From Flavobacterium lipolyticum (GTDB lineage Bacteria > Bacteroidota > Bacteroidia > Flavobacteriales > Flavobacteriaceae): a DNA stretch of 17,837 nucleotides. The position numbers and the translations under genes are program-made. The notes beneath the pieces were generated by a model. That model saw only the letters and a list, made by a program, of their open reading frames with translations. It did not search any database and was not told the DNA's origin. Shown here in pieces: positions 1-15,982 of this stretch (its first letter is position 1; each line of letters starts with the position of its first letter). Location of the stretch: positions 1 to 17,837 of the forward strand of contig NZ_JAJJMN010000005.1 in the NCBI RefSeq assembly GCF_020905335.1, read 5' to 3'.

Positions 1-3000
1 TCTTCCGATACATAATCCAATGCTGTTAAAGACTGATCCCCGTTTTGTGCAAACGCCTTGATTACGGTAGCAATATCATTTACCAGCTGCTTTAATGATC
101 TTGTATCATAACGATTGCTATTGTATCTGATATTTAGGTGTAATGAAACGGGGGAAGGGGTAACTATAATATTAAAATCATAGTTGCTTTGATCACTGAC
201 TTCCCTTGATTCTATTGAAAGCCCCTCTTCTTCCCGACTATTGAATACGCCTTCGTTTTCCAGTTCCTTTACTGCATAGTTCTCAAATATCATGACATGA
301 TCCATCAGATCCATGCCCGGTTCACTCTGAGACTGAACCTCCGACAGATTCATATAATGATGTGATGTACCTTGTATCGATTGCTCTTGCAACATTTTTA
401 ACAGGTCAGCAGCCGTAGTATCAACATCATACTTTACTCTGACCGGAATAGTATTACTAAACAGTCCGATCATATCTTCAACACCCGCTAAATCGGCTGG
501 ACGACCTGATACCACAGCCCCAAACACCACATCACTCGTGTTGTTGTAACGTGACAATAGATAGCCCCAAACGCCTTGCACAAAAGTATTGTGGGTAATG
601 CCTAAAGTGGTGCAAAGCGTGTCTACTTGCTTAAACACAACTCCCCCTATTTCAAGGCGTTCACTGTATTCGATATAAGTAGTGTCTACAGCTCTTGTCT
701 TGAAAGGAATCTCTGCCGGTGCTGCATAACCTTTAAGGCACTCCTTCCAGTAACCAAGTGAATGCTCTCTGTCTATGGTTTTCAACCAATTGATATAATT
801 GGAATAAGGTATTACCGGTGGCAAATCAGCTGTACTGCCTTTTATTGCGGCACTCAACAATTCATTAAAGTCATTGATAAGCACACTTACACACCAACCG
901 TCCATCAGGATATGATGATGGCTCCAGATAAACTCATACTCCCCTTGCGACAGATCAACAACCTGCAAACGCATCTGAGAACCACTGCCCAAATCAAAAC
1001 CTCTTTCCCTGTCCTGTTGCTTGATCAGTCCAAGCTGTACCACATCATCAAGCTTCTGATAAGTAAAATTACTCGCTACTTCTTTCCTTACAATTTGCAA
1101 AGATCTCCCTGCATATTCAGTACGGAAACTACTGCGTAAAACAGCATGTCTGGCTGTTAAATCATCATAAGCTCCTTTTAATTTTTCTATATCCAATACT
1201 TTGGCTCGTACCCTGTAGGAGGTCTGCTCAAAATAAAGCGAACCGGAATCTTCTGCCAACCAGTGGTAGTAGATGCCTTCCTGAAGAGGAGATAACTCAT
1301 AGACATCCTCAAGTGTATTATCTGCGTTAAGCTCTAAGAGCTCTGCCCCGCTCAATCCTTGGAAAGTTAAATCCGATGGGGTCAGATGCTGCTCTTTGCT
1401 TTTAGCCAATTCCTCTATTAAAAACTCCAGATGTTTCTTGTAAGATCCTGCCAGACTTTTTATCGTTGCCGCATCATACCTCAAACCTGAATAACGGATC
1501 GATATACCCAGTTCCCCCTTTACCAGCATCCCCGATACATCAAGGATTGTATGCATTTTATTCTCTTTAGAGCTCTCTGATCCCATATGCTCTGAGGCAT
1601 ATTCAAACAGGGAATCTTCCTCATTGGATACATTTACACCAAAATCACCCAAATAATTAAAGGTAATCTCCGGTACAAGTGCACTCTCAAGTCTTTCCTG
1701 ACTTAAGTGGGTCAGAATACCGTAACCAATTCCTTTATTAGGCAAACGGCGTAAAGCTTCTTTTACTGCCACTAAATGTACTGCTTCATTACCAGAACCC
1801 GATACATCCAGTACAAACGGGTAAACCGTTGTAAACCAGCCAACCGTTCTGCTGATATCTACTCCATCGATGATCTCCTCTCTTCCATGACCCTCCATCT
1901 GTAAGACACTTCTAGCTGCTGACAAAACTTCTTTCAGCGCTAAACCAAGACCTGTCAGTAACACATCGTTTATCTCTGTGTTATAAACTCCGTGAACACG
2001 GGTTTGCAAAAGTCCTGTGGTATGCTGATCCAGAGCGAAAGATTCCGAAGAATCAATTACAGCTGCACGACCTTCTTCTATCGCTTTATCCTGCGCCAAG
2101 CCTGCAATCTGATGATCACAAACCTGTTGCCAGTAAACACGCTCCTTTTCAAGTTTGCTGCCTGATGCATATTCCTTTTGAAGCAAAGCCCATCGCTGGA
2201 AAGAATCGGTCTTTGCCGGTAAGGCTGTTTTTTCACCTTCCTTATAACCGGAATACAGACTCGATAAATCTTCTAAAAGTATACGCCAGGAAACGCCATC
2301 CACCACCAGGTGATGAACAATCAGACCCAAACGGTCTCCGTCTTTTAGCCTGAAATGTGCTACCCTCAACAATGGACCTTCAGACAAGTTGATACTTGAT
2401 TGCAGGGCTTCGCCTAGTTGTGCCATCTCAGCCTGAGCAGCTTCTGATTCCCTTAAGTCATAGAAGTGAATCATGCAGCGATTGGAGCTTACAGCTCCAT
2501 TAAACTGCTCCCATACTCCCTGATTCTGTTTATAAACCATACGAAGGGCATCGTGATGCCTCGTCAAATCTTCTATGCTCTTCTCCAGTATACTGCCATC
2601 CAGCTCCTCCTTACTATACAGTAAAACAGATTGATTGAAGTACTCATGTGCTTTTATCTCCTCTGATTTGAAAAACCATTCCTGGATTGGGGTCAGCACA
2701 ACAGCACCACTCACTTCACTTTGATCGCTAACCTGGGTGGTCAGCTCCATCAACCCTGCCAGATCTTCCAATACCGGTGTGCTTAACAACTGCTCTACTT
2801 TAAGTCTGTAACCCTGTTGCTTTAATCGGGCTACCACCTGAATTGACTTGATGGAATCTCCCCCAAGATTGTAAAAACTATCCTTGATACCGATGCCTTC
2901 TTTTTTCAATACCGCTGACCATACCAAAACCAAAACCTTTTCCTGTTCTGTTCCCGGTGCTACATATTCAACACCACTCGATAATCCCGCACCCTCAGGA

Positions 3001-4523
3001 TTCGGTAATGCTTTTCTGTCTATCTTACCATTGGCCGTTAATGGGATCGCTTCGAGTTGAACAAAGTACGCCGGAAGCATATACTCCGGCAGCGACTGTT
3101 TTAAATAAGCTCGTAAATCACTTGCGTTCTGCTCGACATTAGAAACGATATACGCTACAAGTTCTTTCTCTGCTGACTCGTTCTCTCTGGCTACAACAAC
3201 TGCCTGATTTACAGCTTCATGTTTGACTAAAGCATGCTCTATCTCTCCAAGTTCTATCCTGTGTCCTCTTATTTTTACCTGATCGTCTTTTCGACCTATG
3301 AACTCAATGTTGCCATCGGGTAGCCAACGACCCAAATCGCCTGTTTTGTACAAACGCTCTCCTGCTCTAAAAGGATTTGTTATAAACTTCTCCTGACTTA
3401 GCGCTTCCTTATTTAAATAACCTCGTGCTACCTGATCTCCTCCAATCAGAATCTCGCCTAAAACCCCAACCGGCTGAAGCGAATTCTTTTCATTTACGAT
3501 GTAAATCTGTGTATTCTCAACAGGCTTGCCTATCAAAACTTCATGACCCACAGTTGGGTGTTGGCTTAAGTTTATTGCGGTGACATCTATCGAAGCTTCC
3601 GTTGGTCCATAATAATTATGCAAGCTCGAAAAAGGAGCCTTTGCTTTAAAGGATGATTCGATTCTTTTTGATAAAGCTTCTCCACTGCATATTACATGCT
3701 GCAAACATTCCAGTTTATCCCACTTTATAGTGTCCAACGCTGCACTCAACATCGAAGGAACAAAGTGAATAATACTTATTTTTTGTGATTCTAATAGCTC
3801 CTCTAAGTATACCGGGTCTTTATGCCCTTCCGGTTTTGCAAAAACAAGCTTACTGCCACAAACCAATGGGAGGAATAACTCCCAAACCGAAACGTCAAAC
3901 GTTACAGGTGTTTTCTGTAAGAACACATCTGCCTCTTTCACTTCTAGGTCACGTTTCATCCAAAGCATTCTGTTTACCAGACCGCTATGTTCGAGCATTA
4001 CTCCTTTTGGATTCCCTGTCGAACCTGAGGTGTAAATCACATAAATCAGGTTCTCCGGTTGAGACCTGCGAGTCTCTACATCTTTAGCATAACGCTCCTG
4101 GTTTTCTTTGAACTTGCTTAACTCTTGCTCATCCAGGCAAACCTTACACTGAGTATCTTCTTTAATATAGTCTATTCTTTCCTGAGGATATTGCGGATCA
4201 ATAGGAACATAAGCTCCTCCCGATTTTAACACACCCAATATCGACACAATCATCCACTCGCTTCGCTCCAATTGTATCCCTATCAGATCATCAGGCTGAA
4301 TGTTGTAATTTTCTATTAGGTAATGCGCCAACTGATTGGATCGCTCATTAAGCTCCCTGTAGGTCAGTTCTGTATCCTCAAAGACTATGGCGATGTTATC
4401 CGGTGTCTTTGCCACCTGTTCTTCAATTAAATCTACAATTGTCTTGTCCTTCGGATAAGCTGCTGTTGTATTATTGAATATGAACAATAATTCGTGCTCT
4501 TCTTCTTTTGTTAAGAAATTCAT
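1..4523 (-). CDS. NRPS gene C, N-terminal part: A(Ser)-T-E-C(DCL)-...; 3' end outside window
   Basis: The minus strand reads open from the ATG at 4521-4523 to the window edge (1507 codons), ending in the C-A linker (TALDYVSE), so another module follows. Order: adenylation about residues 18-510 (A1 LTYREL, A3 YTSGSTGNPKG, A4 FDVSVWE with D210, A5 NYYGPTE, A7 YKTGDL, A10 NGKIDRK); carrier with S557 in GGDSIKSI; epimerization (HHLVVDGVSWR, H737); and DCL condensation (HHHILMDGW, H1203/H1204). The code D-V-W-H-I-S-Y-I-D-K differs at two positions from the EntF Ser code DVWHLSLIDK, so L-Ser is activated and then epimerized. The protein starts within the C-A linker (MNFLTKEEEHELL), so it has no condensation domain of its own for Ser and must use the C-terminal one of gene B. 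The start overlaps the gene B stop (ATGA), which favours reinitiation by the same ribosomes. No docking domain is visible at this junction. Confidence 0.95.
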   Translation of the reverse strand, partial: MNFLTKEEEHELLFIFNNTTAAYPKDKTIVDLIEEQVAKTPDNIAIVFEDTELTYRELNERSNQLAHYLIENYNIQPDDLIGIQLERSEWMIVSILGVLKSGGAYVPIDPQYPQERIDYIKEDTQCKVCLDEQELSKFKENQERYAKDVETRRSQPENLIYVIYTSGSTGNPKGVMLEHSGLVNRMLWMKRDLEVKEADVFLQKTPVTFDVSVWELFLPLVCGSKLVFAKPEGHKDPVYLEELLESQKISIIHFVPSMLSAALDTIKWDKLECLQHVICSGEALSKRIESSFKAKAPFSSLHNYYGPTEASIDVTAINLSQHPTVGHEVLIGKPVENTQIYIVNEKNSLQPVGVLGEILIGGDQVARGYLNKEALSQEKFITNPFRAGERLYKTGDLGRWLPDGNIEFIGRKDDQVKIRGHRIELGEIEHALVKHEAVNQAVVVARENESAEKELVAYIVSNVEQNASDLRAYLKQSLPEYMLPAYFVQLEAIPLTANGKIDRKALPNPEGAGLSSGVEYVAPGTEQEKVLVLVWSAVLKKEGIGIKDSFYNLGGDSIKSIQVVARLKQQGYRLKVEQLLSTPVLEDLAGLMELTTQVSDQSEVSGAVVLTPIQEWFFKSEEIKAHEYFNQSVLLYSKEELDGSILEKSIEDLTRHHDALRMVYKQNQGVWEQFNGAVSSNRCMIHFYDLRESEAAQAEMAQLGEALQSSINLSEGPLLRVAHFRLKDGDRLGLIVHHLVVDGVSWRILLEDLSSLYSGYKEGEKTALPAKTDSFQRWALLQKEYASGSKLEKERVYWQQVCDHQIAGLAQDKAIEEGRAAVIDSSESFALDQHTTGLLQTRVHGVYNTEINDVLLTGLGLALKEVLSAARSVLQMEGHGREEIIDGVDISRTVGWFTTVYPFVLDVSGSGNEAVHLVAVKEALRRLPNKGIGYGILTHLSQERLESALVPEITFNYLGDFGVNVSNEEDSLFEYASEHMGSESSKENKMHTILDVSGMLVKGELGISIRYSGLRYDAATIKSLAGSYKKHLEFLIEELAKSKEQHLTPSDLTFQGLSGAELLELNADNTLEDVYELSPLQEGIYYHWLAEDSGSLYFEQTSYRVRAKVLDIEKLKGAYDDLTARHAVLRSSFRTEYAGRSLQIVRKEVASNFTYQKLDDVVQLGLIKQQDRERGFDLGSGSQMRLQVVDLSQGEYEFIWSHHHILMDGWCVSVLINDFNELLSAAIKGSTADLPPVIPYSNYINWLKTIDREHSLGYWKECLKGYAAPAEIPFKTRAVDTTYIEYSERLEIGGVVFKQVDTLCTTLGITHNTFVQGVWGYLLSRYNNTSDVVFGAVVSGRPADLAGVEDMIGLFSNTIPVRVKYDVDTTAADLLKMLQEQSIQGTSHHYMNLSEVQSQSEPGMDLMDHVMIFENYAVKELENEGVFNSREEEGLSIESREVSDQSNYDFNIIVTPSPVSLHLNIRYNSNRYDTRSLKQLVNDIATVIKAFAQNGDQSLTALDYVSE
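3..1315 (-). other. DCL condensation domain, gene C
   Basis: YELSPLQEGIYYHW, then HHHILMDGW (H1203/H1204/D1208) and SGRPADLAGVEDMIGLFSN. Compared with its sisters it is four residues shorter just after FTYQKLD (near 1030-1065) and has DIEKLKGAYDDL where they have DIDKLAIAYQGL. It leads into the linker TALDYVSE of a further module outside the window. Confidence 0.9.
1385..2710 (-). other. Epimerization domain, gene C
   Basis: TPIQEWFF, HHLVVDGVSWR (H737/H738), EGHGRE, RTVGWFTTVYP and FNYLGDFG are all intact, so D-Ser is expected. Third near-identical copy in the window. Confidence 0.93.
2750..2950 (-). other. Carrier (T) domain, gene C
   Basis: LGGDSIKSI motif, accepting Ser at residue 557 (codon 2853-2855). 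Followed by an epimerization domain. Confidence 0.92.
3000..4470 (-). other. Adenylation domain, gene C (Ser)
   Basis: Code D-V-W-H-I-S-Y-I-D-K, read from FDVSVWE, the SIIHFVPS stretch, VICSGEA and NYYGPTEASID. It matches the EntF Ser code DVWHLSLIDK at eight of ten positions, making this the best-supported substrate in the window. The first part (4255-4480) is nearly identical in DNA to the matching part of gene A (17590-17820), while the core between A3 and A6 is unrelated to it. Confidence 0.9.
4520..4523 (-). promoter_or_regulatory. ATGA stop/start overlap between genes B and C
   Basis: Minus-strand ATGA: the ATG of gene C (4521-4523) overlaps the TGA of gene B (4520-4522). No purine-rich ribosome-binding sequence precedes it. 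The arrangement is typical of termination-reinitiation coupling, which would keep the two halves of this split module in similar amounts. Confidence 0.85.
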
Positions 4524-7500
4524 ATGTTTAATGCCTGAGTTGGATATTCTACAAATTTATTTACTACACCATTAAGGTGATTTATTACTCGTCCAATCAA
4601 TGGCATACTATAATAATTTTGATTATACTTGATATTTATGGTGATAGAAGTTGATGTTGAATGAACTGTCAGGTTAAAATCATAATTAGTCTGTTCAAAC
4701 ACTTCCATTGCTTGCAGGATCAAACCTTCTTCACTTTGCGTATTTAATAAGCCTTCACTTTTGAGTTCTTTTGCAACATAGTTCTCAAATATCATAATAT
4801 GATTCATCAGATCCATGCCCAATTCACTCTGTGACTGAACCTCCGACAGGTTCATATAATGATGTGATGTACCTTGTATCGATTGCTCTTGCAGCATTTT
4901 TAACAGGTCAGCAGGCGTAGTATCAACATCATACTTTACTCTGACCGGAATAGTATTACTAAACAGTCCGATCATATCTTCAACTCCCGCTAAATCGGCC
5001 GGACGACCTGATACCACAGCCCCAAACACCACATCACTCGTGTTGTTGTAACGTGACAATAGATAGCCCCAAACGCCTTGCACAAAAGTGTTGTGGGTAA
5101 TGCCTAAAGTGGAACAAAGCGTGTCTACTTGCTTAAACACAGCTCCCCCTATTTCAAGGCGTTCACTACATTCGTCATAAGTAGTATCTACAGCTCTTGT
5201 CTTGAAAGGAATCTCTGCCGGTACTGCATAACCTTTAAGGTACTCCTTCCAGTAACCAAGTGAATGCTCTCTGTCTATGGCGCTCAACCAATTGATATAA
5301 TTGGAATAAGGTATTACCGGTGGCAAATCAGCTGTACTGCCTTTTATTGCGGCACTCAACAGCTCATTAAAGTCATTGATAAGCACACTTACACACCAAC
5401 CGTCCATCAGGATATGATGAGAACTCCAGATAAACTCATACTCCCCTTGTGACAGATCAACAACCTGCAGACGCATCTGAGAACCACTGCCTAAATCAAA
5501 ACCTCTTTCCCTGTCCTGTTGTTTGATCAGCGCTACTTGCAAATCTTGGTCTGCCGAACCGTCAAGTTTCTGATAAGTAAAATTACTCGCTACTTCTTTC
5601 CTAACAATTTGCAAAGATCTCCCTGCATATTCAGTACTAAAACTAGTACGCAAAACAGCATGTCTGGCTGTTAAACCCTGGTAAGCAATAGCCAGTTTAT
5701 CGATATCCAATACTTTGGCTCGTACCCTGTAGGAGGTCTGCTCAAAATAAAGCGAGCTGGAATCTTCTGCCAGCCAGTGGTAGTAGATGCCTTCCTGAAG
5801 AGGAGATAACTCATAGACATCCTCAAGGGTATTATCTGCGTTAAGCTCTAAGAGCTCTGCCCCGCTCAATCCTTGGAAAGTTAAATCCGATGGGGTCAGA
5901 TGCTGCTCTTTGCTTTTAGCCAATTCCTCTATTAAAAACTCCAAATGTTTCTTGTAAGATCCCGCCAGACTTTTTATCGTTGCCGCATCATACCTCAAAC
6001 CTGAATAACGGATCGATATACCCAGTTCCCCCTTTACCAGCATCCCCGATACATCCAGAATCGTATCCTTTTTATTTTCTTTAGAGGTATCTGATCCCAT
6101 ATGCTCTGAGGCATATTCAAACAAGGAATCTTCCTCATTGGATACATTTACACCAAAATCACCCAAATAATTAAAGGTAATCTCCGGCACAAGTGTACTC
6201 TCAAGTCTTTCCTCACTTAAGTGGGTCAGAATACCATAACCAATTCCTTTATTAGGCAAACGGCGTAAAGCTTCTTTTACTGCCACTAAATGTGCTGCTT
6301 CATTACCAGAACCCGATACATCCAGTACAAACGGGTAAACCGTTGTAAACCAGCCAACCGTTCTGCTGATATCTACTCCATCGATGATCTCCTCTCTTCC
6401 ATGACCCTCCATCTGTAAGACACTTCTAGCTGCTGACAAAACTTCTTTCAGCGCTAAACCAAGACCTGTCAGTAACACATCGTTTATCTCTGTGTTATAA
6501 ACTCCGTGAACACGGGTTTGCAAAAGTCCTGTGGTATGCTGATCCAGAGCGAAAGATTCCGAAGAATCAATTACAGCTGCACGACCTTCTTCTACCGCTT
6601 TATCCTGCGCCAAGCCTGCAATCTGATGATCACAAACCTGCTGCCAGTAAACACGCTCCTTTTCAAGTTTGCTGCCTGATGCATATTCCTTTTGAAGCAA
6701 AGCCCATCGCTGAAAAGAATCGGTCTTTGCCGGTAAGACTGTTTTTGCACCTTCCATATAACCGGAATACAGACTCGATAAATCTTCTAAAAGTATACGC
6801 CAGGAAACGCCATCCACCACCAGGTGATGAACAATCAGACCCAAACGGTCTCCGTCTTTTAGCCTGAAATGTGCTACCCTCAACAATGGACCTTCAGACA
6901 AGTTGATACTTGATTGCAGGGCTTCGCCTAGTTGTGCCATCTCAGCCTGAGCATTTTCTGATTCTCTTAAGTCATAGAAGTGAATCATGCAGCGATTGGA
7001 GCTTACAGCTCCATTAAACTGCTCCCATACTCCCTGATTCTGTTTATAAACCATACGAAGGGCATCGTGATGCCTCGTCAAATCTTCTATGCTCTTCTCC
7101 AGTATACTGCCATCCAGCTCTTCCTTACTATACAGTAAAACAGATTGATTGAAGTACTCATGTGCTTGTATCTCCTCTGATTTGAAAAACCATTCCTGGA
7201 TTGGAGTCAGCACAACAGCACCACTCACTTCACTTTGATCGCTAACCTGGGTGGTCAACTCCATTAACCCTGTCAGCTCTCCCAATACCGGTGTGCTTAA
7301 CAACTGCTCTACTTTAAGTCTGTACCCTTGTTGCTTTAATCTGGCTACCACCTGAATTGACTTGATGGAATCTCCACCAAGATTGTAAAAACTATCCTTG
7401 ATACCGATGCCTTCTTTTTTCAATACCTCTGACCATACCGAAACCAAAACCTTTTCCTGTTCTGTTACCGGTGCTGCATATTCAACACCACTCGATAGTC

Positions 7501-10500
7501 CCATAGCTTCAGGGTTCGGTAATGCTTTTTTATCTATTTTACCATTGGCCGTTAATGGGATGGCTTCGAGTTGAACAAAGTACGCCGGAAGCATATATTC
7601 CGGCAACGACTGTTTTAAATAAGCTCTTAAATCGCTTGTGTTTTGCTCGACATTAGAAACGATATACGCCACGAGTTCTTTCTCTCCCGACTCGTTCTCT
7701 CTGGCTACAACTACTCCTTGATTTACAGCTTCATGTTTTACTAAAGCATGTTCTATCTCTCCAAGTTCTATTCGGTAACCCCTAATCTTTACCTGATCGT
7801 CTTTTCTCCCTATGAACTCAATATTGCCATCGGGTAGCCAACGACCCAAATCGCCTGTTTTGTACAAACGCTCTCCTGCTTTAAAAGGATTTGCTACAAA
7901 CTTCTCCTTGGTTAACGCTTCCTGATTTAAATAACCTCGTGCTAAACTATTACCTCCTATACAAATTTCTCCTATTACACCAATTGGCAGTAAATTTTGA
8001 TTTTTGTCCAGAATTAAAACCTGGCGACCAGCATACGATCTACCAATTGGAATTGTATTCTCAAATTTTGCGAGCTTGCCCTGTAACATAATTGGAAACC
8101 ATGTAGCTGTAAGCGTCGTTTCCGTTGGTCCATAAACATTGTAAAACTCTTTTGTAAAATTTGAAATGTTATGCCAATGTTTTTCAAATATTCCTTTTTC
8201 AAGTTTTTCCCCACCTATTGCACAAAACTCAAGCTTATGCGAAAATGTCTCAGAATTAAAAGTTGTTATAAAAGAATTAAAGAAGGCAGTTGAAAAATCC
8301 GCATGTGTAATTTTATATTTTGAAATTAGTCCATAAATATATTCAGGATCAACGTTATGTGTTTTTATATACAAGCTGGCACCGAAGCATAAAGTTGTAA
8401 AAATTTCCTGAGCAGCTGCGTCAAAAGCAACGTTAAAAAATTGCAAAAAGCGAGATTCGGCACTTACTCCATATAAATTTTTAACATTAAAAATATGGGC
8501 AATGATGCTGCGATGTTCAATTAAAACGCCTTTTGGCAAACCTGTAGATCCAGAAGTATATATGGCATAAATTAAGTTATCAGGACTTAATTCTTTTAAT
8601 AAATTTGTCTTTTGATACGATAAACTTTCGGCAATAAAAACATCCAATTTACTTTTATCAATAATTAATGAACATTTACTATCGTTTGCGATATATTTTA
8701 TTTTTTCTTCCGGGAAATCTAAATCGATTGGTATATATCCTGCCCCTGCTTTTAAAATTGCAAGAATTGTAATAATCATATTTTCATTTCTCTCTAATTG
8801 AAAACCGATTAAATCATCTGGCCTGATTTTATAATTATTCTTTAAATAATGTGCGAGTTGATTCGAACGCTTATTTAACTCGTTATAGGAAATTTCTTTA
8901 CCTTCGAATACAAGTGCTACTTTGTTTGGTGTCTTTTCAACCTGTTCTTCAAACAAGTCCACAATCGTCTTGTCCTTCGGATATATTGCTGTTGTATCAT
9001 TAAAGGTGAACAACAGTTTGTGTTTCTCTTCTTCAGATAAATAATCTAATGCTGTTAAAGACTGATCCGCGTTTTGTGCAAACGCCTTGATTACGGTATC
9101 AATATGGTTTACCAGCTGCTTTAATGATGCTGTATCATAACGATTGCTATCGTATCTGATGTCTATCTTTAGTGAAAAAGCGGATGGGATCACTATAATA
9201 TTAAAATCATAATTGGATTGCGCAATAACTTCCACTGAATCTAAGGCAAATCCTTCTTCTTCTTCCTGGCTATTGAATACACCTTCGTTTTCCAGTTCCT
9301 TTACTGCATAGTTCTCAAATATTATAATATTATTGATCAGATCCATGCCCGGTTCACTCTGAGACTGAACCTCCGACAGGTTCATATAATGATGTGATGT
9401 ACCTTGTATCGATTGCTCTTGCAGCATTTTTAACAGGTCAGCAGCCGTAGTATCAACATCGTACTTTACTCTGACCGGAATAGTATTGATAAACAGTCCG
9501 ATCATATCTTCAACACCTGCTAAATCGGCCGGACGACCTGATACCACAGCCCCAAACACCACATCACTCGTGTTGTTGTAACGTGACAATAAATACCCCC
9601 AAACACCTTGCATAAAAGTGTTGTGGGTAATGCCTAAAGCAGTACAAAGCGTGTCTACTTGCTTAAACACAGCTCCCCCTATTTCAAAGTGTTCACTGTA
9701 TTCGACATAAGTAGTGTCTACAGCTCTTGTCTTAAAAGGAATCTCTGCCGGTACTGCATAACCTTTAAGACACTCCTTCCAGTAACCCAGTGAATGTTCT
9801 CTGTTTATGGTTTTCAACCAATTGATATAATTGGAATAAGGTATTACCGGTGACAGATCAGCTGTACTGCCTTTTATTGCGGCACTCAACAACTCATTAA
9901 AGTCATTGATAAGCACACTTACACACCAACCGTCCATCAGGATATGATGATGACTCCAAATAAACTCATACTCCCCTTGTGACAGATCAACAACCTGCAG
10001 ACGCATCTGAGAACCACTGCCTAGATCAAAACCTCTTTCCCTGTCCTGTTGCTTGATCAGCGCTACTTGCAAATCTTGGTCTGCCGAACCGTCAAGTTTC
10101 TGATAAGTAAAATTATTCGCTACTTCTTTCCTTACAATTTGCAAAGATCTCCCTGCATATTCAGTACTAAAACTACTACGCAAAACAGCATGTCTGGCTG
10201 TTAAACCCTGGTAAGCAATAGCCAGTTTATCGATATCCAATACTTTGGCTCGTACCCTATAGGAGGTCTGCTCAAAATAAAGCGAGCTGGAATCTTCTGC
10301 CAGCCAGTGGTAGTAGATGCCTTCCTGAAGAGGGGATAACTCATAGACATCCTCAAGGGTATTATCTGTGTTAAGCTCTAAGAGCTCTGCCCCGCTCAAT
10401 CCTTGGAAAGTTAAATCCGATGGGGTCAGATGCTGCTCTTTGCTTTTAGCCAATTCCTCTATTAAAAACTCCAAATGTTTCTTGTAAGATCCCGCCAGTT

Positions 10501-13500
10501 TTTTAATCGTTGCCGCATCATACCTCAAACCTGAATAACGGATCGATATACCCAGTTCCCCCTTTACTAGCATCCCCGATACATCAAGGATTGTATTCAT
10601 TTTATTCTCTTTAGAGGTCTCTGATCCCATATGCTCTGAGGCATATTCAAACAAGGAATCTTCCTCATTGGATACATTTACACCAAAATCACCCAAATAA
10701 TTAAAGGTAATCTCAGGTACAAGTGTACTCTCAAGTCTTTCCTGACTTAAGTGGGTCAGAATACCGTAACCAATTCCTTTATTAGGCAAACGGCGTAAAG
10801 CTTCTTTTACTGCCACTAAATGCGCTGCTTCATTACCAGTACCAGAACCCGATACATCCAGTACAAACGGGTAAACCGTTGTAAACCAGCCAACCGTTCT
10901 GCTGATATCTACTCCATCGATGATCTCCTCTCTTCCATGACCCTCCATCTGTAAGACACTTCTAGCCGCTGACAAAACTTCTTTCAGCGCTAAACCAAGA
11001 CCTGTCAGTAACACATCGTTTATCTCTGTGTTATAAACTCCGTGAACACGGGTTTGCAAAAGTCCTGTGGTATGCTGATCCAGAGCGAAAGATTCCGAAG
11101 AATCAATTACAGCTGCACGACCTTCTTCTACCGCTTTATCCTGCGCCAAGCCTGCAATCTGATGATCACAAACCTGCTGCCAGTAAACACGCTCCTTTTC
11201 AAGTTTGCTGCCTGATGCATATTCCTTTTGAAGCAAAGCCCATCGCTGGAAAGAATCGGTCTTTGCCGGTAAGGCTATTTTTTCACCTTCCTTATAACCG
11301 GAATACAGACTCGATAAATCTTCTAAAAGTATACGCCAGGAAACGCCATCCACCACCAGGTGATGAACAATCAGACCCAAACGGTCTCCGTCTTTTAGCC
11401 TGAAATGTGCTACCTTCAACAATGGACCTTCAGACAAGTTGATACTTGATTGCAGGGCTTCGCCTAGTTGTGCCATCTCAGCCTGAGCATTTTCTGATTC
11501 TCTTAAGTCATAGAAGTGAATCATACAGCGATTGGGGCTTACAGCTCCATTAAACTGCTCCCATACTCCCTGATTCTGTTTATAAACCATACGAAGGGCA
11601 TCATGATGCCTCGTCAGATCTTCTATGCTCTTCTCCAGTATACTGCTATCCAGCTCTTCCTTACTATACAGTAAAACAGATTGATTGAAGTACTCATGTG
11701 CTTGTATCTCCTCTGATTTGAAAAACCATTCCTGGATTGGGGTCAGCACAACAGCACCGCTCACTTCACTTTGATCGCTAACCTGGGTGGTCAGTTCCAT
11801 TAACCCTGCCAGATCTTCCAGTATAGGCGTTCGAAGAAGATGCTCTACTTTAAGTCTGTAGCCCTGTTGTTTTAATCGGGCTACCACCTGAATTGACTTG
11901 ATGGAATCTCCACCAAGATTGTAAAAACTATCCTTGATACCAATGCCTTCTTTTTTCAATACCGCTGACCATACCGAAACTAAAACCTTTTCCTGTTCTG
12001 TTCCCGGTGCTACATATTCAACACCGCTCGATAATCCTGCGCCTTCAGGGTCAGGTAATGCTTTTTTGTCTATTTTCCCACTAGTGTTTAATGGGATGGC
12101 TTCGAGTTGAACAAAATGCACCGGAAGCATATACTCAGGCACCAACTGTTTTAAATAAGTTCGTAAATCACTTGCATTCTGCGCGACATTAGAAACGATA
12201 TACGCCACGAGTTCTTTCTCTCCCGACTCGTTCTCTCTGGCTACAACAACTGATTGACTTACAGCTTCATGTTTTACTAAAGCATGCTCTATCTCTCCAA
12301 GCTCTATCCTGTGTCCTCTTATTTTTATCTGATCGTCTTTTCTCCCTATGAACTCAATGTTTCCATCAGATAGCCAACGACCCAAATCGCCTGTTTTGTA
12401 CATGCGGGTATAGTTCAGATCAACTTGCGTTTTTTCCTGCTTGTTTCCACAAAATATAAAAAGGGTATAATCCTGCATTCCATTTTTACTACTTACCTGT
12501 ATTTTGGTCTGAAATAGTTCTATATCTGCAATTCCCGCTTTTAACAGCATTTCCACCAGATAGTATCGATCTTCTTTTTCACTAAGTCCGGGAGTAATTC
12601 TATTTTCTTGTTTTGTATAATCAAATGCACTTTGATTTTCACCATCTTCATGGGCAACAATCGGTAATAACGTTCCTAGTATAAACCTACCGCCTTCTCT
12701 CAAAAGCATTGACATGTTCCTTACTAAATTACTCGGGTACTGAACACGATCCAATGTTAGAGTACTTACCACAAAGTCCATAGAGTTTGCTTGTAACTTA
12801 CTTTCTTTCAAAAATACATTTACAGGCATATCTATTCGACAAAGGATCCCATTAATTTTATCGTTGATCAGCTTTTTAACGAAAAAGGGATTCGCATCAA
12901 TACCCGTAATATGATAAGTCCCATTTGCATTTATACTACGGACAAGTTCTCCACTTCCACATCCGAGATCTATACCTTTTGATAAGGGAGCTAAATTGTT
13001 AGTGAGCTTCAGGAAAACTTCCCAGGAGATACTTTGAGCCTTATAATTATCAAACATTCCTTCATAATAATAGCGCAAAAATGTTGATGTAAATTCTTTC
13101 TCTAAATTATTATCTTTTATTAATTGAATAGCCTCGTTTTTTAGTTTACCCTCAAAATTCTTTTCAATTTCAAAAATGATCTCTTCTGTAGATAATCCAT
13201 AATCTAACCGTTCATTTATTTCTTTAACTGTTAGATATTGTGGAGCCTCAATCTTTTTAAAGGCAGTATTAGAAATCTCACCTCTGTCAACGTATATCTC
13301 ATCCAAATAAAAATAATTAGGGACAAAACTTGAAAATGTTTTCCATCTATTATTTAAATACGCTCTCGCTAAACCTGGCCCGCTAAGATACATTTCGCCC
13401 GGAACCCCCAACGGTGTTAACTCTCGATCTGTATCCAGAATATAGGTTTTAAGATTTTGCCTCGATTTACCGATAGGAACGCTCAACGAATCAACTATAC

Positions 13501-15982
13501 CATGCCACGCGTGAGAGTAAACCGTATACTCAGTAGGGCCGTAGCCATTCACAAAATGACATTTTTCTGTCCAGCGCTGATAGAGTTCCGAAGAACATTT
13601 TTCTCCTACTGACACAATGGTTGGACGTGCGATAAGCTTTTCCGGATCCAACTGTTTCAAAAGAGACGGCACTGTTACAACTACATCTATATTCTGTTCA
13701 TTGATAATTTCAACCAATTGAGAAAAATTTTCTTTGCGAATCAGTGTTAATGTTCCTCCATTTGTGAGTGCCATAACACTTTCTCCCACCGAAGCGTCAA
13801 AACTAAATGAGCCCATTTGAGATATCTTCTTTGGCACATCCAGATTAAAATAACACTTCTGCCAATATGATAAATCTACCAAAGAATGATGCTCTATCAT
13901 GACCCCCTTTGGATTTCCAGTGGATCCCGACGTATGGATCACATACGCCAGATTATCCGGAGCAATTTTACCCGGGCATTTTTCAACACTGTAATCTTCC
14001 GGCACAAACTCAACATCAATGGCAAACAATTCTCCTTCATAAAAATCCATATCATAAATGAAGTTTGCCTCTGTTATCAGTAATTTTAAGGAAATGTCTT
14101 TTACAATTTGTTCCTTTCTTGAAGATGGATTCTCAGGATCAATAGGAACGTAAGCCCCTCCTGCTTTTAATATTGCTAATACAGTGATAATTGCCCATTC
14201 CGTTCTGTCCAATTGTATTCCTACTAAATCCTCAGTAGTAATTCCATAATTTTCTCGCAAAAGATTTGCAAGTTGGTTGGAACGTTCATTAAGTTCCTGA
14301 TACGTCAATTCGATATCCTCAAATACTATAGCTATATTGTCCGGAGCCTTTGCAACTTGTTCTTCAAACAAATCGACAATCGTCTTATCTTTTGGATAAG
14401 AAACTACTGTATCATTGAATGTAACTAGTAGTTCATTTTTTTCTTCTTCTGACAGATAATTTATTTGTGCTATTTTCTCATCAGGATAAGATAATATCGA
14501 ATTTAAAAGATTTTTGAAATGTTTCATTAAACGCTCTATCATCTCGCGCTCATAGACATCCACATTAAAGATTAATTTGAAATAAATATAATCTCCAACC
14601 TCTCCAAAATGCAGCTCTATATCATTCTTAACCTTCAAAGGCCCATTATCCGACACCTGGTTTATGACCGTATCATCCGATATCTCCAAGTCTTCATTTT
14701 CCTTAATATTATGATAGGTGATCGAGATGTCAAAAATCGGACTTCTGCCTGTATCTCTCTGAAGTCCCAACTCTTCTGCCAATCGATCAAAAGGATACAT
14801 TTGATGATTATAGCTTTTTAAAGTATGCTCTTTTACAGACTGGTAAAAATGGTTAAAACTTTCCTGAGGGTCAACCTCATTTCTTAAAGCCAGCGTGTTT
14901 ACATAAAACCCAATCTGGTCTTCCAGATCCGCATGATCTCTACCCGCTACCGGGCTTCCTATGATGATATCTTTTTCAGATGTATAACGATACATTAACA
15001 CCTTCCATGAGGCTAGTAAGCTCATGAAAAGACTGCCGCCATTCTTCTGGATATATCCTTTTAGTTTAGTTGTTGTTGCTTTGTCTAGATAAGTGGCTAA
15101 GCCATGACCGTTATAGGTCTTAACCTGAGGCCGTTGTTTGGTACTTGGCAAGTCCAGCAATGGTAATTCTCCTGAGAGCTTGTCCAGCCAATATTCTCTA
15201 TGCGCCTTAAATGACTCCTGGTTCAACTGGGCCAACTGCCAGGCTGAATAATCCTTGTATTGGATTTTTAATTCCTTTAAATCAGGTTCTTTGTCTGCCT
15301 TGTAAGCTTCATAGTATTTGAATACATCCCTGGACAATACTTCATTAGACCAGCCATCGCTAATGATGTGGTGCATATTGAAGTAGAAAAGATACTCCTC
15401 TTCCTCTACATGAAGCAGCGCTGCCCTGAGTAAAGGTCCCTTCTCCAAGTCAAATGCCCGGTAAGCATCTGCGGTAATATAGTCCTCTGTCTTTCCTTTC
15501 TTGTCTTCTTCTTTTCTAAAATCCATATACTCGATTGAAAAGTTTAGGTCTTCCCTTTCCAATATCCGCTGTCCGATCTCTCCAGACTCCTCCTCCCTGA
15601 AAACCGTTCGTAAGATCTCGTGACGATCAATTGTGGAATCAATGGCTCTCTTGAAATTTTCAATTTCAATACCTTCTTTCAAGTAAGTACTTCCGGGTAA
15701 GTTATACGCTAATGAACCTCCTTCAAACTGACTCAAGATCCATAACCTTCTTTGGCCTGATGACAATTTAAATTGCTCCAGACCCTTGACTGGAGTAATG
15801 TCCTCATAATTAGATTTTATATCCTCTCTACTTAAGTGCTCTAATAATGCATTTTTGTTTTTTTTAACCTTGTATAATAAATCATCAGGTATTGAATCGC
15901 TGTTGAATTCAATATTGAGTTTATCTCCGATTTTAGAAAGATAAACACCATTTTCTAATAATTGAGCGATTAATTTATCCAT
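4520..15982 (-). CDS. Multimodular NRPS gene B: dock-C-A(MT)-T-E-C-A-T-E-C, 3820 aa
   Basis: Complete synthetase subunit that should add two residues and carry the condensation domain for a third. Order and approximate residues: TubC-like docking 1-52; LCL condensation 68-500 (HHIISDG, H204/H205/D209); adenylation 530-1310 interrupted by a SAM methyltransferase at about 890-1190; carrier with S1360; epimerization (HHLVVDG, H1540); DCL condensation (H2012/H2013/D2017); second adenylation about 2330-2825 (D2521); carrier S2872; epimerization (H3052); and a final condensation domain (H3522/H3523/D3527) that ends the protein. All catalytic motifs look intact, so both modules should be active. Both carriers have GGDSIKSI, the form usually paired with E domains. 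The ATG at 15980-15982 follows the gene A stop with no gap and no clear ribosome-binding sequence, so translational coupling is likely. The TGA overlaps the gene C start by four bases. The protein lacks a partner A domain for its last C domain; that A domain begins gene C. Confidence 0.97.
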   Translation of the reverse strand: MDKLIAQLLENGVYLSKIGDKLNIEFNSDSIPDDLLYKVKKNKNALLEHLSREDIKSNYEDITPVKGLEQFKLSSGQRRLWILSQFEGGSLAYNLPGSTYLKEGIEIENFKRAIDSTIDRHEILRTVFREEESGEIGQRILEREDLNFSIEYMDFRKEEDKKGKTEDYITADAYRAFDLEKGPLLRAALLHVEEEEYLFYFNMHHIISDGWSNEVLSRDVFKYYEAYKADKEPDLKELKIQYKDYSAWQLAQLNQESFKAHREYWLDKLSGELPLLDLPSTKQRPQVKTYNGHGLATYLDKATTTKLKGYIQKNGGSLFMSLLASWKVLMYRYTSEKDIIIGSPVAGRDHADLEDQIGFYVNTLALRNEVDPQESFNHFYQSVKEHTLKSYNHQMYPFDRLAEELGLQRDTGRSPIFDISITYHNIKENEDLEISDDTVINQVSDNGPLKVKNDIELHFGEVGDYIYFKLIFNVDVYEREMIERLMKHFKNLLNSILSYPDEKIAQINYLSEEEKNELLVTFNDTVVSYPKDKTIVDLFEEQVAKAPDNIAIVFEDIELTYQELNERSNQLANLLRENYGITTEDLVGIQLDRTEWAIITVLAILKAGGAYVPIDPENPSSRKEQIVKDISLKLLITEANFIYDMDFYEGELFAIDVEFVPEDYSVEKCPGKIAPDNLAYVIHTSGSTGNPKGVMIEHHSLVDLSYWQKCYFNLDVPKKISQMGSFSFDASVGESVMALTNGGTLTLIRKENFSQLVEIINEQNIDVVVTVPSLLKQLDPEKLIARPTIVSVGEKCSSELYQRWTEKCHFVNGYGPTEYTVYSHAWHGIVDSLSVPIGKSRQNLKTYILDTDRELTPLGVPGEMYLSGPGLARAYLNNRWKTFSSFVPNYFYLDEIYVDRGEISNTAFKKIEAPQYLTVKEINERLDYGLSTEEIIFEIEKNFEGKLKNEAIQLIKDNNLEKEFTSTFLRYYYEGMFDNYKAQSISWEVFLKLTNNLAPLSKGIDLGCGSGELVRSINANGTYHITGIDANPFFVKKLINDKINGILCRIDMPVNVFLKESKLQANSMDFVVSTLTLDRVQYPSNLVRNMSMLLREGGRFILGTLLPIVAHEDGENQSAFDYTKQENRITPGLSEKEDRYYLVEMLLKAGIADIELFQTKIQVSSKNGMQDYTLFIFCGNKQEKTQVDLNYTRMYKTGDLGRWLSDGNIEFIGRKDDQIKIRGHRIELGEIEHALVKHEAVSQSVVVARENESGEKELVAYIVSNVAQNASDLRTYLKQLVPEYMLPVHFVQLEAIPLNTSGKIDKKALPDPEGAGLSSGVEYVAPGTEQEKVLVSVWSAVLKKEGIGIKDSFYNLGGDSIKSIQVVARLKQQGYRLKVEHLLRTPILEDLAGLMELTTQVSDQSEVSGAVVLTPIQEWFFKSEEIQAHEYFNQSVLLYSKEELDSSILEKSIEDLTRHHDALRMVYKQNQGVWEQFNGAVSPNRCMIHFYDLRESENAQAEMAQLGEALQSSINLSEGPLLKVAHFRLKDGDRLGLIVHHLVVDGVSWRILLEDLSSLYSGYKEGEKIALPAKTDSFQRWALLQKEYASGSKLEKERVYWQQVCDHQIAGLAQDKAVEEGRAAVIDSSESFALDQHTTGLLQTRVHGVYNTEINDVLLTGLGLALKEVLSAARSVLQMEGHGREEIIDGVDISRTVGWFTTVYPFVLDVSGSGTGNEAAHLVAVKEALRRLPNKGIGYGILTHLSQERLESTLVPEITFNYLGDFGVNVSNEEDSLFEYASEHMGSETSKENKMNTILDVSGMLVKGELGISIRYSGLRYDAATIKKLAGSYKKHLEFLIEELAKSKEQHLTPSDLTFQGLSGAELLELNTDNTLEDVYELSPLQEGIYYHWLAEDSSSLYFEQTSYRVRAKVLDIDKLAIAYQGLTARHAVLRSSFSTEYAGRSLQIVRKEVANNFTYQKLDGSADQDLQVALIKQQDRERGFDLGSGSQMRLQVVDLSQGEYEFIWSHHHILMDGWCVSVLINDFNELLSAAIKGSTADLSPVIPYSNYINWLKTINREHSLGYWKECLKGYAVPAEIPFKTRAVDTTYVEYSEHFEIGGAVFKQVDTLCTALGITHNTFMQGVWGYLLSRYNNTSDVVFGAVVSGRPADLAGVEDMIGLFINTIPVRVKYDVDTTAADLLKMLQEQSIQGTSHHYMNLSEVQSQSEPGMDLINNIIIFENYAVKELENEGVFNSQEEEEGFALDSVEVIAQSNYDFNIIVIPSAFSLKIDIRYDSNRYDTASLKQLVNHIDTVIKAFAQNADQSLTALDYLSEEEKHKLLFTFNDTTAIYPKDKTIVDLFEEQVEKTPNKVALVFEGKEISYNELNKRSNQLAHYLKNNYKIRPDDLIGFQLERNENMIITILAILKAGAGYIPIDLDFPEEKIKYIANDSKCSLIIDKSKLDVFIAESLSYQKTNLLKELSPDNLIYAIYTSGSTGLPKGVLIEHRSIIAHIFNVKNLYGVSAESRFLQFFNVAFDAAAQEIFTTLCFGASLYIKTHNVDPEYIYGLISKYKITHADFSTAFFNSFITTFNSETFSHKLEFCAIGGEKLEKGIFEKHWHNISNFTKEFYNVYGPTETTLTATWFPIMLQGKLAKFENTIPIGRSYAGRQVLILDKNQNLLPIGVIGEICIGGNSLARGYLNQEALTKEKFVANPFKAGERLYKTGDLGRWLPDGNIEFIGRKDDQVKIRGYRIELGEIEHALVKHEAVNQGVVVARENESGEKELVAYIVSNVEQNTSDLRAYLKQSLPEYMLPAYFVQLEAIPLTANGKIDKKALPNPEAMGLSSGVEYAAPVTEQEKVLVSVWSEVLKKEGIGIKDSFYNLGGDSIKSIQVVARLKQQGYRLKVEQLLSTPVLGELTGLMELTTQVSDQSEVSGAVVLTPIQEWFFKSEEIQAHEYFNQSVLLYSKEELDGSILEKSIEDLTRHHDALRMVYKQNQGVWEQFNGAVSSNRCMIHFYDLRESENAQAEMAQLGEALQSSINLSEGPLLRVAHFRLKDGDRLGLIVHHLVVDGVSWRILLEDLSSLYSGYMEGAKTVLPAKTDSFQRWALLQKEYASGSKLEKERVYWQQVCDHQIAGLAQDKAVEEGRAAVIDSSESFALDQHTTGLLQTRVHGVYNTEINDVLLTGLGLALKEVLSAARSVLQMEGHGREEIIDGVDISRTVGWFTTVYPFVLDVSGSGNEAAHLVAVKEALRRLPNKGIGYGILTHLSEERLESTLVPEITFNYLGDFGVNVSNEEDSLFEYASEHMGSDTSKENKKDTILDVSGMLVKGELGISIRYSGLRYDAATIKSLAGSYKKHLEFLIEELAKSKEQHLTPSDLTFQGLSGAELLELNADNTLEDVYELSPLQEGIYYHWLAEDSSSLYFEQTSYRVRAKVLDIDKLAIAYQGLTARHAVLRTSFSTEYAGRSLQIVRKEVASNFTYQKLDGSADQDLQVALIKQQDRERGFDLGSGSQMRLQVVDLSQGEYEFIWSSHHILMDGWCVSVLINDFNELLSAAIKGSTADLPPVIPYSNYINWLSAIDREHSLGYWKEYLKGYAVPAEIPFKTRAVDTTYDECSERLEIGGAVFKQVDTLCSTLGITHNTFVQGVWGYLLSRYNNTSDVVFGAVVSGRPADLAGVEDMIGLFSNTIPVRVKYDVDTTPADLLKMLQEQSIQGTSHHYMNLSEVQSQSELGMDLMNHIMIFENYVAKELKSEGLLNTQSEEGLILQAMEVFEQTNYDFNLTVHSTSTSITINIKYNQNYYSMPLIGRVINHLNGVVNKFVEYPTQALNI
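4523..5830 (-). other. C-terminal DCL condensation domain of gene B, serving the gene C Ser module
   Basis: YELSPLQEGIYYHW start and SSHHILMDGW (H3522/H3523/D3527), with the HHxxxDG motif intact although the preceding His of HHH is Ser here. Its last 80 or so residues (about 4523-4770) differ strongly from the two sister C domains. It ends the polypeptide at PTQALNI, inside the linker to an A domain that is encoded by the next gene. Confidence 0.88.
5900..7225 (-). other. Epimerization domain, gene B module 2
   Basis: Same motif set as its sister domains: TPIQEWFF, HHLVVDGVSWR (H3052/H3053), EGHGRE, RTVGWFTTVYP and FNYLGDFG. No catalytic change is seen, so a D residue is expected at this position. 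Confidence 0.93.
7260..7465 (-). other. Carrier (T) domain, gene B module 2
   Basis: LGGDSIKSI motif with the accepting Ser at residue 2872 (codon 7367-7369), followed by an epimerization domain. Nearly identical to the other two GGDSI carriers. Confidence 0.93.
7510..8990 (-). other. Adenylation domain, gene B module 2 (Gln/Glu-like code, weak)
   Basis: All core motifs are present: ISYNELNKRSN (A1), YTSGSTGLPKG (A3), FDAAAQE (A4, D2521), NVYGPTETT (A5), YKTGDL (A7), GRKDDQVKIRGYR (A8) and NGKIDKK (A10). The hand-aligned code is D-A-Q-D-C-I-V-L-T-K. The first four positions equal those of the Gln code DAQDLGVVDK but the rest differ, so Gln or Glu is only a weak suggestion. The A1-A6 core (about 7980-8930) is visibly AT-richer and more divergent than its flanks; for example, the 60 bases from 8281 hold 16 G or C. 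Confidence 0.9.
9040..10365 (-). other. DCL-type condensation domain, gene B module 2
   Basis: Begins YELSPLQEGIYYHW and has HHHILMDGW (H2012/H2013/D2017) and SGRPADLAGVEDMIGLFIN. It directly follows an epimerization domain, the normal position of a domain accepting a D-configured donor. It shares long identical stretches with the C domains at 4523-5830 and 1-1315. Confidence 0.9.
10440..11765 (-). other. Epimerization domain, gene B module 1
   Basis: Converts the carrier-bound L residue to a D/L mixture for the downstream DCL condensation domain. Motifs: TPIQEWFF (E1), HHLVVDGVSWR (E2, H1540/H1541/D1545), EGHGRE (E4), RTVGWFTTVYP (E5) and FNYLGDFG (E7). It is nearly identical to the two other E domains in the window. 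It alone carries a two-residue insertion (SGSGTGNEA) from a 6-base duplication near 10836-10850. Confidence 0.93.
11798..12005 (-). other. Carrier (T) domain, gene B module 1
   Basis: LGGDSIKSIQVVARL, with the phosphopantetheine-accepting Ser at residue 1360 (codon 11903-11905). The GGDSI form is the one typically found before epimerization domains, and an E domain follows. The end of the domain (HLLRTPILEDL) differs from the other two copies (QLLSTPVL). Confidence 0.93.
12050..14400 (-). other. Interrupted adenylation domain, gene B module 1 (substrate unassigned)
   Basis: A1 (LTYQELNERSN), A2 (LKAGGAYVPID), A3 (HTSGSTGNPKG, with His where Tyr is usual; T684-G689), A4 (FDASVGE, D729), A5 (NGYGPTEYTVY) and A6 (GEMYLSGPGLARAYL) come before a methyltransferase. 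A7 (MYKTGDL from M1194), A8 (GRKDDQIKIRGHR), A9 and A10 (TSGKIDKK) come after it. Both halves of the fold are therefore complete. The hand-aligned specificity code is D-A-G-V-V-V-G-V-Y-K. D235 and K517 equivalents are present, so an alpha-amino acid is expected, but I recognise no close standard code. The A2-A3 stretch (FIYDMDFYEGELFAIDVEF) resembles that of the gene A Tyr domain. Confidence 0.88.
12412..13315 (-). other. SAM-dependent methyltransferase domain inserted between A6 and A7
   Basis: About 300 residues (roughly 890-1190) lie between FVPNYFY and RMYKTGDL, where an ordinary A domain has only a few residues (compare NPFKAGERLYKTGDL elsewhere in this protein). The glycine-rich motif I is GIDLGCGSGEL (D1005-G1011), followed by the acidic post-I loop TGIDANPF, then VSTLTLDRVQYPSNL and LLREGGRFILGTLLP, typical of class I methyltransferases. 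A helical segment of about 110 residues precedes motif I. The motif wording is not that of the common NRPS N-methyltransferase, so N-, O- or C-methylation cannot be chosen from sequence alone. Expected role: methylation of the residue activated by the host A domain. The stretch is AT-richer than the flanking A7-T-E block. Confidence 0.85.
14483..15781 (-). other. LCL-type condensation domain, gene B module 1
   Basis: Forms the peptide bond between the gene A Tyr-bound chain and the first gene B residue. Motifs seen are SSGQRRLW (C1), RHEILRTVF (C2), MHHIISDGWS (C3, catalytic second His 205) and GRDHADLEDQIGFYVNTL (C5). The sequence differs clearly from the two DCL domains of this protein. An LCL type fits because the upstream carrier has no epimerization domain. 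Confidence 0.88.
15827..15982 (-). other. TubC-like N-terminal docking domain of gene B
   Basis: The first 52 residues (starting MDKLIAQLLENGVYLSKIGD and ending KKNKNALLEHL) match the pattern of the TubC N-terminal docking family: a helix, the phrase GVxLxxxGDKLxI for the beta hairpin, then SIPDDLLYKVKKNKxxLL. In that family the hairpin binds a short C-terminal motif of the upstream synthetase, which here would be the charged tail of gene A. It lies directly before an LCL condensation domain, as usual. Seen: the pattern. Inferred: the partner. Confidence 0.8.

Follow-up and report, generated by a model that had tools for sequence, protein, structure and literature searches.

A nonribosomal peptide synthetase of Flavobacterium lipolyticum with a methyltransferase between motifs A6 and A7 of an adenylation domain

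Organization of the locus

The analysed stretch of DNA (the window) comprises the entire contig C5 (17,837 bases) of the 5.77-Mb genome of Flavobacterium lipolyticum, in which 67 AMP-binding matches were found. The minus strand carries the gene for a nonribosomal peptide synthetase (NRPS) of 3820 amino acids (aa), and the adenylation (A) domain of its first module encloses a class I S-adenosylmethionine (SAM) methyltransferase (MT) between the conserved motifs A6 and A7. Read from its sequence, this is an A domain interrupted at the a6-a7 site, with a predicted bifunctional adenylation-methylation activity. The features of the gene are as follows, all on the minus strand:

4520..15982, minus: NRPS gene (3820 aa), the first module of which has the interrupted A domain
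15830..15979, minus: TubC_N-type docking domain, residues 2-51 (Pfam, 22.0 bits, under the 26-bit cut-off)
14426..15772, minus: condensation (C) domain, residues 71-519 (Pfam)
13310..14410, minus: first part of the A domain through A6, residues 525-891, pocket code DAGVVVGVY
12407..13309, minus: insert, a class I SAM methyltransferase with a METTL9/DREV-like fold, residues 892-1192
12950..12967, minus: MT motif I LGCGSG, residues 1006-1011 (motif reading)
12746..12751, minus: invariant Asp1078-Arg1079 of the LDR motif, aligning with METTL9 Asp213-Arg214
12287..12406, minus: A domain continued from A7 (RMYKTGDL) to A8, residues 1193-1232
12047..12286, minus: small C-terminal subdomain of the A domain with A9 and A10, residues 1233-1312
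11813..12010, minus: carrier (T) domain of the first module, limits approximate, GGDS at residue 1357
10376..11770, minus: condensation-superfamily domain read as an epimerisation (E) domain (TPIQEWFF, HHLVVDGVSW), upstream limit approximate

In the E-type domain, residues 1722-1869 matched the NCBIfam model TIGR01720, which we take to be a marker of E domains, with a total of 261.7 bits over two stretches (cut-off 74.2). The order of the protein is a TubC_N-like docking domain, C, A(MT), T and the E-type domain, followed by more C-superfamily, A and T domains, and the first module is thus C-A(MT)-T-E.

The T-E-C stretches of the successive modules encoded at 3-4523 and 4520-15982 look near-identical, and a similar block lies at the start of contig C2. 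Because of these blocks the assembly is probably broken there, and C5 may join C2.

Site and boundaries of the insert

The region 12412-13315 (minus), given as the limits of the insert in an earlier note on this DNA, has one open frame out of three, which codes for residues ~890-1190. These limits were approximately right but off by a few bases, since the comparison with plain A domains gives 13309-12407 (residues 892-1192). Upstream of the MT, motif A6 (GEMYLSGPGLARAYLNN) occupies residues 862-878 and FVPNYF residues 886-891; downstream follow A7 (1193-1200), A8 (1213-1232), A9 (1282-1287) and A10 (1301-1310). The domain therefore reads as A2-A6, then ~300 residues of methyltransferase, then A7-A10, with all motifs well formed. 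As the earlier note had proposed, the insert lies in the core subdomain before the hinge, A8-A10 following the MT. Its boundaries are sharp, since A6 and A7 are 327 residues apart in the interrupted domain, and the spacing is 30 in all three plain A domains of the window. Elsewhere in the same genome this spacing was 29-37 in the 29 fetched stretches in which both motifs were detected.

Within the insert, Pfam found methyltransferase families only (Methyltransf_11 with an E-value of 2.3e-10, Methyltransf_23, _12, _31, _25 and MetW), which together with the motif order bears out a complete class I MT between A6 and A7. The sequence motifs of both the adenylation and the methyltransferase enzyme are intact. 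The G+C content of the insert is 34%, compared to 40% for the window. An insertion at a8-a9, the outcome that the earlier note had set against its own placement, was rejected because of the motif order: A7, A8, A9 and A10 are all downstream of the MT, and there is no space for an MT between A8 (ending at 1232) and A9 (starting at 1282).

Distribution of the arrangement

A search of the insert against 5.8 billion proteins gave 2 matches among 1020 candidates, namely a fragment of 211 aa in which A7 follows the MT (P0002) and a free-standing protein of 310 aa with 34% identity over 42% (P0003). When the search was guided by whole-protein length, 4 of 1526 candidates matched, and the most distant of these four, used as query, gave at least 6 further matches (at least 7 of 1260 counting the query). 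Named carriers are Chitinophaga sp. RAB17, Chitinophaga nivalis and a metagenome-assembled genome of Pyrinomonadaceae. When genome contigs were scanned with two peptide patterns, the 39 stretches obtained yielded 2 loci (Flavobacterium and Myxococcus). In genome samples, matches were found in 5 of 150 relatives and 2 of 395 genomes of the order, those besides the own genome being weak and in frames of 213-342 aa. For the phylum, the single match (1/395) was the own genome, and in the phylum of the Myxococcus genome 3 of 195 matched, two of them in frames of NRPS size and the third in a frame of 211 aa. Altogether, the a6-a7 arrangement is rare and scattered across at least three phyla.

The earlier note had called for a search for further A domains with an insert just before YKTGDL, and these exist: the MT lies between A6 and A7 in all 12 interrupted A domains compared, with a spacing of 323-343 residues against 30-34 in 20 plain domains (two mispaired rows were dropped from this comparison). 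L014 is a 13th such domain, and the arrangement is present in 11 other NRPS proteins. The MT parts share 24-83% pairwise identity, with invariant core residues.

An assembly or frameshift artefact fusing an MT gene to the NRPS gene could be imagined, since the contig is only 17.8 kb long and the repeated T-E-C blocks could mislead assembly. This explanation is refuted. The same arrangement occurs on a 5.5-kb contig from Flavobacterium sp. UGB4466 (L007), which codes for NRPS residues 1-1665 and differs at 11 of them, one within the insert, and the 11 other NRPS proteins carry it too.

Pocket code and twin domains

The nine pocket positions were set by motif anchors and follow the PheA numbering. 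All 12 interrupted A domains showed the code D[AG]GVVV[GA]VY, and L014 likewise by eye; these rows are not independent, as P0004/P0006, P0008/P0010 and L008/L014 form pairs. Among the plain A domains of the interrupted proteins and of two neighbouring window genes, 24 of 26 showed another code, the exceptions being the twin domains of P0008 and P0010. In the own genome the code was found in the interrupted domain alone among 56 A domains read, which comprise 4 domains of the window and 52 from the 55 fetched loci, of which L052, L060 and L063 lacked a readable frame. Fetched loci and window span 62 of the 67 AMP-binding matches, five weak or partial matches lying outside the code reading. At least two of the 56 codes (L023, L064) are unlike amino-acid codes. 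The code D[AG]GVVV[GA]VY was not found in the literature searched.

In P0008 and P0010, the module 2 A domain is close to the interrupted module 5 domain and has no MT. The two domains share 355 and 351 of 436 positions before the insert, respectively, with end branches of 0.04-0.06 in the tree, and in P0008 modules 2 and 5 have 131 of 190 positions in common after it. The MT begins at the F[IL]PN[RK]F-to-RMYKTGDL transition of the plain twin. Since P0008 and P0010 are close kin, they count as one case.

Relationship of the methyltransferase

The protein P0007 (4789 aa) contains at residues ~3953-4640 a single A domain with two MTs, one at a6-a7 and one after A8; A9 was not detected by the motif search after this second, N-methyltransferase (N-MT)-like domain. 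Together with the two a2-a3 MTs of the own genome, this N-MT-like domain forms a set of three N-MT-like NRPS MTs which match one another at E 3e-26 or better. The similarity of the a6-a7 MT to these three is at the level of the class I core (best BLAST E 0.002), and the two a2-a3 MTs resemble the N-MT-like domain of P0007, not the a6-a7 MT. A profile of a6-a7 MTs scored 397-444 bits on five MTs, which are also profile members, and 2.7-9.5 bits on the three N-MT-like ones, in agreement with the earlier statement that the insert is unlike the NRPS N-MTs.

The best fold match of nearly the entire insert, including parts outside the Rossmann core, was METTL9/DREV. The Asp-Arg of the LDR motif and the Pro of the LP motif are common to METTL9/DREV (PF05219) and the a6-a7 MTs, and R[LI]P[YF] near the C-terminus occurs in 6 of the 7 a6-a7 MTs that do not belong to the Bacteroidota group, the remaining one having QLPY. 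The window MT differs in lacking this element as well as Tyr295 and Asn210. The PF05219 profile gave 13.4 bits for the window insert (gathering cut-off 26), and for four relatives 29.5 and 26.7, both above the cut-off, 20.4, and in one case no listing at E<=0.001.

METTL9, a protein-histidine N-methyltransferase of eukaryotes, is free-standing and modifies HxH peptides, and its histidine pocket includes Asn210, Asp213, Arg214, Val241 and Tyr295 (PMC10073072), whereas the a6-a7 MT is enclosed in an NRPS A domain. In the 11 a6-a7 MTs aligned, the positions of Asp213 and Arg214 are kept throughout, and that of Val241 is Leu or Ile in all 11.

Proposed function

We consider it somewhat probable that the a6-a7 domain loads one amino acid, the side chain of which is methylated on the carrier by the METTL9/DREV-like MT before epimerisation. 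This proposal is based on the site, the intact motifs of both enzymes, the occurrence in several phyla, the single pocket code and the METTL9-like fold. The A domain would activate one particular amino acid and load it onto the next carrier domain, and the MT in the A6-A7 loop would then use SAM to methylate the side chain of the bound residue, the invariant Asp-Arg pair probably holding and deprotonating the accepting group. The methylated residue would subsequently be epimerised and handed on. We infer that both enzymes are active; methylation is placed after loading since known interrupted A domains behave in this way according to review excerpts, and epimerisation last because of the domain order. 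The preference for the side chain over the backbone results from the MT type, the two MTs of P0007 and the downstream E-type domain, each of these being weak alone.

Several observations weigh against this proposal. Since the interrupted A domains are related among themselves, common descent may account for part of the code rule. Their pocket is hydrophobic bar Asp235 and Tyr331, and that of the window matches no substrate code known to us. We also know of no assay of the a6-a7 MT family. With METTL9, Foldseek gave modest TM-scores of 0.52-0.55 by query length, the algal DREV enzyme appears only in row 17, and by sequence UbiG-type O-methyltransferases (3.4e-8) score better than the algal DREV enzyme (2.9e-7) and human METTL9 (2e-4). 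Of the METTL9 residues, Asn210 is kept in none of the 11 MTs, the position of Tyr295 is Tyr in 6, Phe in one and Ile or Thr in 4 (Ile in the window), and that of Asp300 is Asp in 7 and Asn in 4. Arg123, Met126 and Tyr306 are kept in none and Gly124 in 2, in an alignment both ends of which are probably shifted. Moreover, the a6-a7 MT of P0007 has an odd motif I (DLCFGNA), and if this copy is dead, the argument from two methylated atoms fails.

The odd motif of P0007 would also fit an insert that retains the MT fold without catalysis, being structural, regulatory or decaying, as would the nearly identical A domains without MT in P0008 and P0010, because of which the A domain does not appear to need the MT. 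We regard this as quite improbable, since the window MT has an intact motif I and LDR motif as well as the acidic residue that follows beta-2, and the core residues are invariant despite the divergence of the MTs. In addition, the positions of METTL9 Asp151 and Glu174 carry an acidic residue in all 11 MTs, and 10 of the 11 have Gly153.

A backbone N-methyltransferase at an unusual site, acting on the alpha-amine of the carrier-bound amino acid like the a8-a9 MTs, appears rather unlikely. Backbone N-methylation is the commonest use of interrupted A domains according to a review excerpt, the hydrophobic pocket points to an amino acid that lacks a nucleophile in its side chain, and several N-methyltransferases are among the nearest folds of the insert. 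However, kinship with the three NRPS MTs does not exceed the class I core level, and P0007 already has an N-MT-like domain in the same A domain. The E-type domain downstream likewise speaks against this reading, since N-methyl residues are rarely epimerised.

A more specific form of side-chain methylation is doubtful: the a6-a7 MTs might be an assembly-line branch of the METTL9/DREV histidine methyltransferases, histidine or a related heteroaromatic amino acid being loaded by the A domain with the D[AG]GVVV[GA]VY pocket and methylated at a ring nitrogen, e.g. to yield pi-N-methylhistidine within a peptide natural product.

Comparison with known interrupted A domains

Lundy, Mori and Garneau-Tsodikova reportedly introduced a6-a7 in 2020 as a new interruption site (family 6), with a2-a3 plus a6-a7 as family 7. 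Like the window domain, the members of family 6 are said to be complete NRPS A domains in which an MT of ~300 aa separates A6 from A7. The suggestion of the earlier note that the element is most likely undescribed is therefore most likely incorrect; the arrangement probably belongs to a rare type that has been catalogued before. To our knowledge, the description of family 6 includes neither the pocket code nor the METTL9-like fold nor a presence/absence pair, and a6-a7 is the least-studied interruption site. The new clues to its product are the fold match to the animal histidine methyltransferases (METTL9) and the tie to a single pocket code. P0007, with a6-a7 and a8-a9, would be a di-interruption distinct from family 7. 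The excerpts of a 2024 and a 2022 review mention the a8-a9 and a2-a3 sites alone, and that of a 2021 paper adds a4-a5.

In the TioS/McyA type an N-MT is enclosed at a8-a9 (PMC11355689, Table 2). A SAM methyltransferase within an A domain is common to both, but in TioS/McyA the site lies in the small subdomain and the MT is of another sequence type (NSVVQYFP-like), the core-level similarity being judged on the a8-a9 MT of P0007. The TioN/MarQ type, likened here by description, has an a2-a3 S-methyltransferase and, according to the excerpt, shares an MT within the core subdomain, with side-chain methylation on the TioN/MarQ side; it differs in the a2-a3 site.

The A domains of the own genome include interruptions at four different sites, each by its own kind of enzyme (an MT at a6-a7, an MT at a2-a3, a monooxygenase at a4-a5 and a decarboxylase at a5-a6). 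In L017 (C2:1-6000), a luciferase-like monooxygenase (PF00296, E 3e-42) lies between A4 and A5, with the code DILQLGMIW, presumably of the glycine type. L016 (C1:3231000-3237000) contains within residues ~745-1250 a pyridoxal-dependent decarboxylase (PF00282, E 3.3e-41, 804-1165) between A5 and A6, and its code VDWVISIAD is one that we take to be of the beta-alanine type. Insert and pocket together suggest that this domain may make its own beta-alanine from aspartate. A precedent is the decarboxylase-type pyridoxal phosphate domain inside an A domain of JamL (jamaicamide), as described in an excerpt (PMC3870968). N-MT-like methyltransferases (INSVIQNF) lie between A2 and A3 in L019 (C3:261500-266500) and L018 (C2:14500-21000); in L018 the remainder of the interrupted A domain appears to be decaying and is directly followed by a complete A domain. 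In Myxococcus (L008, an NRPS of 3171 aa), the second A domain has ~340 aa between A8 and A9, FkbM-type methyltransferase-like by eye.

Implications

Interrupted A domains serve as templates for engineering bifunctional enzymes, according to an excerpt of the literature. For such work, the twins of P0008 and P0010 with and without MT represent a natural presence/absence pair marking a tolerated graft site. Under the rule of one code, one substrate screen would suffice to approach the question of what is methylated. The residues to mutate first are indicated by the METTL9-like fold. If the assembly-line METTL9/DREV branch is true, the METTL9 active site would also occur in bacteria, as part of an NRPS.
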